A stretch of 24,462 bases of DNA. Source: a virus. The notes under the pieces are model-generated. The model made no database searches. It had not been told where the DNA came from and was given only the letters and a program-made list of their open reading frames with translations. Below are positions 13,022-18,609 of the stretch, one piece after another. Every line of letters begins with the position of its first letter. Position 1 is the first letter of the stretch. The position numbers and the translations under genes were made by a program. The stretch spans positions 1-24,462 of the IMG/VR virus record IMGVR_UViG_3300028548_005201; one strand, 5' to 3'.

Positions 13022-13227
13022 TGGCGTCTTCAAAAACCATTGATTTATTGATCGAGGAATATGGCACATGGTGCGCGGACCAAGGTTTCAAGTGCATGGA
13101 TGCGATGGAGTTGATCCATGAGTACGACCTCACCCCCAACCAATCCACATGGATAGCCGATTTCATAGAGCGTTGGGACGTGATGTGGCAAGATTTGTTT
13201 GATAAGAAGTATGAGGCCATAAAATGA
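13021..13227 (+). CDS. Small hypothetical protein
   Basis: 68 residues from ATG at 13021, with GGAGG nine bases upstream. Mostly helical and acidic (MASSKTIDLLIEEYGTWC..., ..WIADFIERWDVMWQDLFDKKY), rich in Trp. No family recognised. It overlaps the preceding stop (TAATG) and the methyltransferase start (ATGA), so all three are translationally coupled. Confidence 0.75.
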   Translation: MASSKTIDLLIEEYGTWCADQGFKCMDAMELIHEYDLTPNQSTWIADFIERWDVMWQDLFDKKYEAIK

Positions 13228-14261
13228 GCGCCTACTACAACGAGATCGACCCGTATGCCGCAGAGTGGCTACGCAATTTAATTAAATCAGGACACATCGC
13301 GGATGGTGTTGTCGATACAAGGAGCATCAGTGATGTCAAACCAGAAGAACTTTTTGAATTTACTCAGTGCCACTTCTTCGCAGGGATTGGCATCTGGAGC
13401 CGAGCCCTCAGAAGTGCAGGATGGTCAGATGACAGGCCAGTTTGGACCGGATCCTGCCCGTGCCAGCCTTTCAGCGGTGCTGGCAAAAGAGCAGGGACTT
13501 CTGACGAGCGGCATTTGTGGCCCCATTGGAACCACCTCATCCAAGAGTGTCGCCCTTCAACAATCTTTGGAGAACAAGTTGCAAGCAAAGATGGCCTCGG
13601 TTGGCTCGACCTTGTACAAACTGACATGGAAGCAAAGGACTACGCCTTTGGGGCGTTCGATCTCTGCGCGGCGGGCTTCGGCGCTCCGCACATCAGGCAA
13701 CGCCTCTGGTTCGTGGCCGACACCGACAACTCGGGATCACAAGGGTGGATACCAAGGGGGGCGGATCAGAAACGGGAAGATCAGCACCGACACCTTGGAT
13801 GTGACAGCTCAACTAACGGCGGGCTGGGCAACACCGACATCGATGACGGGGGGCACGGGGATAGCACCCTCACATCTGACGGGCAAGCACGGGTGGAACA
13901 CGGGAGCGCAAGCTCAACTATCGGGATGGCCGACACCGCAAGTAGCGGACGACAACATGAGCCGAGTAACCAATCCACAGGAGTACAGCCGGAAGAGGTT
14001 GGAAACGAGGCATGCAGGTCAGAACTTAGCGGACACAGCACAAGCGCTGACGGGCCCAATAAGACTAACGGCCACTGGAAAGATGCTGACTGGATCTTCT
14101 GCCGAGATGGAAAGTGGAGGGCAGTTGAACCCAACACATGCCCGTTGGTTGATGGGGCTCCCTCAAGGGTGGGACGACTGCGCGCCTACGGCAACGGCAT
14201 CGTCCCTCAAGTCGCGCAAGGTTTAATCGAAAGTTACATAGAAACAAAGGAGAATTTATAA
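13224..14261 (+). CDS. dcm: DNA (cytosine-5) methyltransferase
   Basis: 345 residues. C5-methyltransferase motifs in order: motif I FFAGIG (51-56, AdoMet binding); motif [15 protein letters not shown] with catalytic Cys80; motif VI as GEQV instead of the usual ENV; motif [13 protein letters not shown]; a target-recognition region of about 150 residues that is Asp/Thr/Gly/Ser-rich with repeated ADT/NTD elements; then [17 protein letters not shown] and motif [21 protein letters not shown]. It probably methylates phage DNA against host restriction; the target site cannot be read off. Start has GAGG upstream and an ATGA overlap. A second 297-codon frame is nested almost entirely within it, and this segment has much higher GC than neighbouring genes. 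Confidence 0.93.
13333..14226 (+). CDS. Nested overlapping gene inside the methyltransferase (+1 frame), WPTP-repeat protein
   Basis: 297 residues, read one base later than the methyltransferase frame and fully inside it. The ATG at 13333 has AAGGAG eight bases upstream, a good site inside another coding region. The protein is Ser/Thr/Gly/Pro-rich: an N-terminal part with SLENKL and [18 protein letters not shown], then three tryptophan blocks ([26 protein letters not shown]), then [35 protein letters not shown] recall very similar hypothetical proteins in many phages lying over or next to cytosine methyltransferases, which supports selection on both frames. Function unknown; a partner or modulator of the methyltransferase is plausible. 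Confidence 0.72.
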
Positions 14262-17753: not shown

Positions 17754-17777
17754 GCCCCCTTTATGGGGGCTTTTTTT
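17754..17777 (+). terminator. Strong intrinsic terminator
   Basis: GCCCCC-TTTAT-GGGGGC stem loop (17754-17770) followed by seven T. It closes the long plus-strand operon. The last T residues overlap the stop codon of the convergent PAPS-reductase-like gene; on the minus strand the hairpin lacks a U-run. Confidence 0.92.
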
Positions 17778-18609
17778 ATCCAGTACACTCACCATCATCT
17801 GCTTGGCAAAGATATGCTTCATCATCAAAGATAAAGTCTCCTTGCTTTTCAACAAAGTCTCCGAGCCCAGCAAAGGTTCGAGTATCATGGAAGTGGCACT
17901 TACGACCTATCTCTTTTGATCGTCTCTCTTCTACATCAGCCCACCATTGCATACGATCAGGGTGTTCACGCCACATCATAGCCAGTGTAGCTTCTGATTT
18001 TAAAAAACAACCATCGCAGTTTCCCTTTGGGGTCACTCCATTGGGGCCAAACAAACCTAAGTTAAAAGGTTGCGACCGCCAAAACGACATGACAGTAGCT
18101 TTAGTTTCAATGGCATCGTTTAATGGATACCAATTGTTCCATCTTTTTTCTTTAGAAATCTTTATACGCCTGGCCTCATCGCTTCGAATGCCCAAGGTAT
18201 TGGTCCACGTCTTCCATCCTTGAGACACCAAGTATCTTTTTATGGTACGAACTTTTAATTCTTGCGTACAAAACCTGCGATGTACGTTCGGAAGTATTTT
18301 TGCCGTAGTCAACAGTGACTCAAAAGGTTCACCCTTACGACTTGCACTATTATGATTGACTACATCAAAGGTTACTTTATTATTGCGCCGATTATATTCC
18401 AGCCAAGTGATAGACACATCCCATCTTTCGCTACATTCTTGCACAAAATCAAGAGTCTCAGGCATCTCCCTGCCCGTGTTAGTAAACAAAACCTTACACC
18501 GATCAGGAAGACCACCATTTGCTTTAATAATTTCGTGAAGCATGAACCCACTGGTCCTGCCCCCCGAAAAACTTATAAGTACATTTCCCTCTGGAAGTTT
18601 ATAGCTCAT
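17776..18609 (-). CDS. PAPS-reductase-like phage protein (PP-loop ATP pyrophosphatase family)
   Basis: 277 residues. SFSGGRTSG with the PP-loop SGGRTS at 15-20 binds the nucleotide phosphate; FTNTGREMPETLDFV follows as in PAPS reductase and DndC relatives. Three cysteines in conserved places, RRFCTQELK (C114) and GNCDGCFLK (C198, C201), suggest an iron-sulfur site. The usual ECGLH tail of assimilatory PAPS reductases is not present; the end is CHFHDTRTF then CQADDGECTG. Such proteins are common in phages; proposed roles are sulfur transfer or nucleic-acid modification rather than sulfate assimilation. It is the last gene of a SNF2-84aa-PAPS minus-strand operon, starting at the stop of the small gene. 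Confidence 0.88.
   Translation of the reverse strand: MSYKLPEGNVLISFSGGRTSGFMLHEIIKANGGLPDRCKVLFTNTGREMPETLDFVQECSERWDVSITWLEYNRRNNKVTFDVVNHNSASRKGEPFESLLTTAKILPNVHRRFCTQELKVRTIKRYLVSQGWKTWTNTLGIRSDEARRIKISKEKRWNNWYPLNDAIETKATVMSFWRSQPFNLGLFGPNGVTPKGNCDGCFLKSEATLAMMWREHPDRMQWWADVEERRSKEIGRKCHFHDTRTFAGLGDFVEKQGDFIFDDEAYLCQADDGECTG

Follow-up and report, generated by a model that had tools for sequence, protein, structure and literature searches.

Does the long open frame nested inside a phage cytosine methyltransferase gene encode a second protein, and if so, how is that protein related to the methyltransferase that encloses it? The locus lies in a 24,462-base virus record, analysed over its whole length (hereafter, the window), which carries terminase, portal, helicase, and primase genes. 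The outer methyltransferase frame is called alpha and the nested +1 frame beta (Table 1). The G+C content of the methyltransferase gene (13224-14261) is 55.5%, compared to 42-46% in its neighbours, which is possibly a consequence of two open coding frames, or of acquisition. A PAPS-reductase-like gene (17776-18609, - strand) and an archaeo-eukaryotic-type primase gene (PF22548; 21804-23333, + strand) are also present on this phage.

Table 1 Features of the methyltransferase locus, in positions of the window
Feature	Position	Strand	Basis or remark
alpha, C5-cytosine methyltransferase, 345 aa	13224..14261	+	PF00145, phrog_363; motifs read from translation
beta, nested protein, 297 aa (297 codons)	13333..14226	+	frame +1 of alpha; PHROG profiles, start, open frame, selection
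AAGGAG, predicted ribosome-binding site of beta	13319..13324	+	8 nt before ATG; AGG codes for Arg in alpha (RSI)
alpha motif I	13377-13391	+	read from translation
alpha motif IV, PCQPFS	13458-13475	+	read from translation
alpha motif VIII, QRLWFV	13698-13715	+	read from translation
alpha motif X, GNGIVP	14190-14207	+	read from translation
beta N-terminal part, ~125 aa	13333..13707	+	overlaps alpha motifs I-VIII; alignments A1, A2
beta cassette 1	13711..13821	+	cluster 0, 74 members, among them an E. coli prophage and several genera of bacteria
beta cassette 2	13822..13923	+	cluster 1, 33 members
beta cassette 3	13924..14049	+	cluster 7, 15 members
beta motif IX-like element	14125..14172	+	translation; same element between cassettes and X in single-frame actinophage enzymes

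The first-pass annotation had described an 894-base +1 frame inside the methyltransferase gene, with its ATG eight bases behind AAGGAG, and this description is accurate. The two peptides that it quoted from beta are present, and the repeats that it read in alpha correspond to VADTD, GNTD, and MADTA. Within the alpha gene, the +1 frame runs for 314 codons without a stop, 297 of them counted from the ATG at 13333; further in-frame ATGs of beta lie at 13303 and 13429. The other alternative frame is open over 59 codons at most, and the +1 frame in control genes of the window over 33-101 codons. When synonymous codons were shuffled within the alpha gene, the 314-codon opening was matched in 16/20000 trials, and when codons were resampled from other genes of the window it was matched in 0/20000 (maximum 245 codons). 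On the evidence of the sequences, the beta frame is a real second gene, with chance excluded.

The start signals of beta are conserved within the coding sequence of alpha. The RSI Arg codon of alpha is AGG in 23/23 distinct close relatives, compared to 16% of the remaining Arg codons of these genes, and AGGAG is followed by ATG at constant spacing in all 23. The RSI site is looser in bacterial genomes, where the Arg codon is AGG in 21/63 cases and CGG in 15/63. Beta is therefore likely to be translated from its own internal start.

To what extent is the nested arrangement shared? A tblastn search with beta matched 204 phage records, including epsilon15 and BcepC6B (N15 was matched when the query was a distant relative of beta), as expected from the earlier suggestion that related hypothetical proteins occur in many phages. 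Scans with beta as the query gave 80 loci in IMG/VR and 80 in bacterial genomes, the latter ranging from Proteobacteria to Phycisphaerales and Leptospiraceae, and at all 80 bacterial loci beta lies in the +1 frame inside alpha and is open. Because searches with beta select for beta, the search was repeated with the alpha frame alone. Stops in the +1 frame of related methyltransferases, which the first-pass annotation had named as a sign against a gene, were absent from beta in 62/62 complete genes of this search, and full-length beta was found in 26/26 complete genes of a more distant alpha-only scan. The third frame, in the incomplete genes listed in the former scan, had 5-18 stops. In N15, the nested frame has an early stop and the remainder is open.

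Several loci depart from the standard layout. Three are frame-swapped (L079, L084, and L275), such that the start of alpha leads into the cassettes and motif IX of beta and the start of beta leads into the end of alpha; with both frames open, a single shift is enough to exchange the tails. At two others (L102 and L133), alpha is broken by one in-frame stop and beta is intact. Sequencing errors, decay, or genuine variation could each account for these frame-swapped and alpha-broken loci. An E. coli prophage locus (L097, 2489-3658) is annotated in RefSeq as two incomplete pseudogenes, yet it holds one alpha and one beta frame, both uninterrupted. Small mycobacteriophage and cyanophage methyltransferases (L086, 1476-2081; L090, 1404-2078) have an open +1 frame as well, with two regions that fit the beta profile, a WPTPT-type element and the WLMG end.

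To analyze selection on the two frames, substitutions were counted in 23 pairs with <10% divergence, each sequence being used once, and changes were classed by their effect in both frames. By this simple count, which assumes a transition weight of 2 and includes small numbers of changes that are synonymous in both frames (10 and 13), beta shows dSN/dSS of 0.25 (0.17-0.48) and dNN/dNS of 0.32 in the first half of the overlap, which corresponds to alpha motifs I-VIII, and 0.20 (0.13-0.32) and 0.23 in the second half. Alpha is under strong constraint in the first half (dNS/dSS 0.06), and its values are 0.46 (dNS/dSS) and 0.54 in the second. The ratio of changes at alpha codon position 3 to those at position 1 falls from 3.0 in the first half to 0.45 in the second, i.e., the wobble position shifts to that of beta. 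A wider set of 32 pairs agrees with these counts. Purifying selection acts on beta in both halves, with dSN/dSS and dNN/dNS well below 1, in agreement with the dual-frame selection suggested in the first-pass annotation. Beta dominates the second half, so that selective dominance changes sides along the gene, which makes the locus a strong natural test of overlapping-gene evolution.

Alignments show that beta consists of ~125 conserved residues, 1-6 cassettes beginning with GW[PAT]TP, and a conserved end containing LNPxxxRWLMGLPxxWD. Its profile matches are phrog_31772 (E 2.7e-34) and phrog_1008 (E 4.2e-33, residues 22-300), and searches of Pfam and NCBIfam with beta returned no family matches. 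A search of solved structures gave only enoyl reductases at chance level, which were rejected. An AlphaFold prediction of beta with 25 close homologues was unusable (mean pLDDT 32), leaving a recognition-domain fold without structural support. In total, 420 cassettes were cut (1-6 per gene; commonest internal length 36 aa) and grouped into 94 clusters, 30 of which have at least 3 members. Identity within clusters is ~0.9 in beta and ~0.6 in both alpha and the unused third frame (cluster 0: beta 0.936, alpha 0.588, third frame 0.590). Since alpha is no better kept than the third frame, its sequence in the cassettes comes close to filler whose only requirement is an open frame.

The cassettes also differ between near-identical genes. 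The window carries types 0, 1, and 7, whereas locus L009 carries types 0 and 1 on a backbone that is identical over 615 nt; an exact 114-nt indel (13947-14060) overlaps cassette 3 of the window, and this block is absent from the otherwise near-identical L009. Loci L035 (types 0, 1) and L051 (types 0, 4) differ by 0.65%. Judged from such comparisons, cassette content changes more rapidly than the backbone does. The first cassette of the window recurs in N15, in a prophage of E. coli, and in bacteria of several genera.

The motifs of a C5 methyltransferase appear to be divided between the two proteins. Alpha matches PF00145 over residues 75-170 (E 2.6e-10) and phrog_363 (E 4.5e-83), and its motif VI reads GEQV in translation. 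Visual inspection of alpha from motif VIII to motif X revealed no motif IX, and the Pfam match ends at residue 170. The end of beta (LNPxxxRWLMGLP), assigned by pattern and position, stands where motif IX stands in single-frame relatives; the Pfam methylase model does not extend to this element, and a profile comparison of alignment A2 with the single-frame alignment A3 aligned the cassette regions only and not motif IX. In C5 methyltransferases, target recognition takes place between motifs VIII and IX (PMC3404938), which puts the cassettes at the recognition position and gives the RWLMGLP element the place of motif IX. The first-pass annotation had located target recognition in the methyltransferase frame and coupled it there to a separate second protein; this part calls for revision, given that beta is the conserved frame in that region and alpha behaves as filler.

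The single-frame relatives come from actinophages. Three of their loci (L319, L321, and L326) have one ORF in the order IV, VIII, LLPTP cassettes, motif IX (RLxPAFxEWMMGWPAGW), and X, and PHROG 1008 unites nested beta with the actinophage protein. A predicted model of the L326 protein matched M.HhaI structures along its length (Z up to 19.0, 225 residues, 3.7 angstrom), with its cassettes and motif IX modelled at low confidence. Over motifs I-VIII, the +1 frame of L321 has kept a beta-like N-terminus and one cassette (LLPTPRATDGTKGGPNQRGSSGDLMLPSAVARLTG); the profile score of this N-terminal relic in actinophages is weakly above that of synonymous shuffles (11-81 of 2000). These features suggest that the single-frame form may have arisen from the nested form by a shift inside the array. 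In Mycobacterium phage Jarcob (L181, 2309-3479), the methyltransferase consists of two overlapping genes in different frames, with motifs I-VI in gp69 and VIII, cassettes, IX, and X in gp70. Compared to the nested genes, the actinophage enzymes (Jarcob gp69/gp70 included) share the order IV, VIII, [LW]xTP cassettes, IX, and X; they differ in that cassettes and motif IX lie in the catalytic frame, resulting in one protein, and that the +1 frame keeps only the short beta-like N-terminus.

We propose, with a probability of about 0.8, that the two subunits of a bipartite C5-cytosine methyltransferase are encoded by a single stretch of DNA, in which beta is a specificity subunit built as a cassette array. 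The alpha frame would yield the large catalytic domain with motifs I-VIII and X, and the internal start with its own ribosome-binding site would yield beta, composed of its N-terminal part, tandem exchangeable target-recognition cassettes of ~36 residues, and motif IX. Because beta carries recognition-type cassettes together with a motif IX-like end, it most likely completes the enzyme of which alpha is one half, as the small subunit for target recognition and motif IX, by analogy with M.EcoHK31I. The relatives provide good support for the idea that beta adopts the fold of the small domain, apparently absent from alpha, and that alpha and beta assemble, in which case we infer that each would need the other for methylation. 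Each cassette would probably add one methylation target, a plausible step that we favour with some reserve, and gain, loss, or swap of cassettes would then retune the host restriction sites against which the phage is protected.

Other explanations of the locus have to be weighed against this two-subunit enzyme. If the open +1 frame were only a by-product of methyltransferase codon composition and repeats, no gene would be present; high G+C content does lengthen open frames and synonymous shuffles do reach the observed length, but the frame is open in every complete gene found via alpha, the Shine-Dalgarno sequence and ATG are conserved, and dSN/dSS is ~0.2. This idea is also contradicted by the cassettes, where beta residues are kept and those of alpha are not, and we regard it as extremely improbable; a spurious ORF was rejected on the chance tests, open-frame conservation, and selection counts. 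Ribosomes could instead shift frame after motif VIII of alpha and so produce a fusion of alpha, cassettes, and motif IX, given that both frames are open and a single shift suffices, that L079 and L275 have this fusion at the DNA level, and that actinophages encode it permanently. The product would be without motif X, however, and beta is open and selected upstream of motif VIII as well, behind its own conserved Shine-Dalgarno sequence and ATG, which makes this route improbable.

It is equally improbable that beta does an unrelated job (e.g., as a regulator or an anti-restriction factor) and overlaps alpha only incidentally. Although beta resembles no solved structure and no Pfam or NCBIfam family, and alpha is already methyltransferase-like, single-frame methyltransferases have the cassettes and the motif IX-like end between motifs VIII and X, PHROG 1008 joins beta to the actinophage protein, no motif IX was seen in alpha, and M.EcoHK31I offers a precedent. 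A two-subunit enzyme whose cassettes are spacers or scaffold, and which therefore has one target, would fit with the lack of a confident predicted structure for the cassettes. Although the most probable of these rivals, it is unlikely, because the cassettes occupy the position of the recognition domain, each type is highly conserved yet differs sharply from the others, and their turnover exceeds that of the backbone.

Beyond this locus, there is roughly an even chance that the two-subunit form represents a widespread family, with a specificity subunit hidden in an overlapping catalytic frame, each protein half inherited function and half overprinted, and specificity evolving as dual-coding cassettes are shuffled. 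Since both frames are open throughout the overlap, one frameshift could swap the tails and leave a single-chain enzyme in place of the two-subunit form, a conversion to which the actinophage relatives point. Gene finders report one of the two frames and drop or misname the other, and a single protein is annotated at the locus in epsilon15, N15, BcepC6B, and RcKeef. Should alpha depend on beta, expression from phage annotations would yield many methyltransferases that look inactive. The cassettes also provide a ready toolkit with which phage protection against restriction could be mapped.

The K1ind1 ORF28/Mte8-like protein, the internal gene of Shelly g55, and PhiXhv-28 belong to the same family as beta; their annotations go no further than hypothetical or 'DNA methyltransferase' and give beta no role. 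No published account of exactly these phage genes was found in the literature searched, and, as far as that literature shows, the breadth of the nested form, the selection that changes sides, and the modular recognition-type array in a hidden frame are new. The smaller polypeptide of M.EcoHK31I is reportedly read from within the alpha gene in a different frame (Lee, Kam and Shaw 1995), so that a nested second subunit is already known in principle from the layout of that enzyme. A search for the M.EcoHK31I sequence in plasmids and E. coli genomes returned prophage and plasmid relatives only.

In M.EcoHK31I, alpha has motifs I-VIII and X and the second polypeptide has motif IX, and the predicted recognition domain was placed in alpha, which counts against beta as the recognition subunit (PMC3404938). 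Like M.EcoHK31I and M.EaeI, the present system encodes two polypeptides, the second in another frame of alpha, with a probably similar motif layout; unlike them, it is borne by phages or prophages, has no recognised restriction enzyme alongside, and has variable tandem cassettes in beta. M.AquI is a split C5 methyltransferase of two polypeptides, of which the smaller has motifs IX and X (PMC3404938). It resembles the proposed enzyme in being formed from two polypeptides, whereas motif X stays in alpha here. In Bacillus phages (SPR, phi3T, and SPbeta), multispecific C5 methyltransferases have tandem recognition units of ~40 residues between motifs VIII and IX. The nested genes resemble them in having 1-6 tandem modular units at this position, which makes a role in recognition plausible, and differ from these single-chain, single-frame enzymes in that the cassettes begin with GW-TP and the array is found in a second protein, encoded in the other frame.
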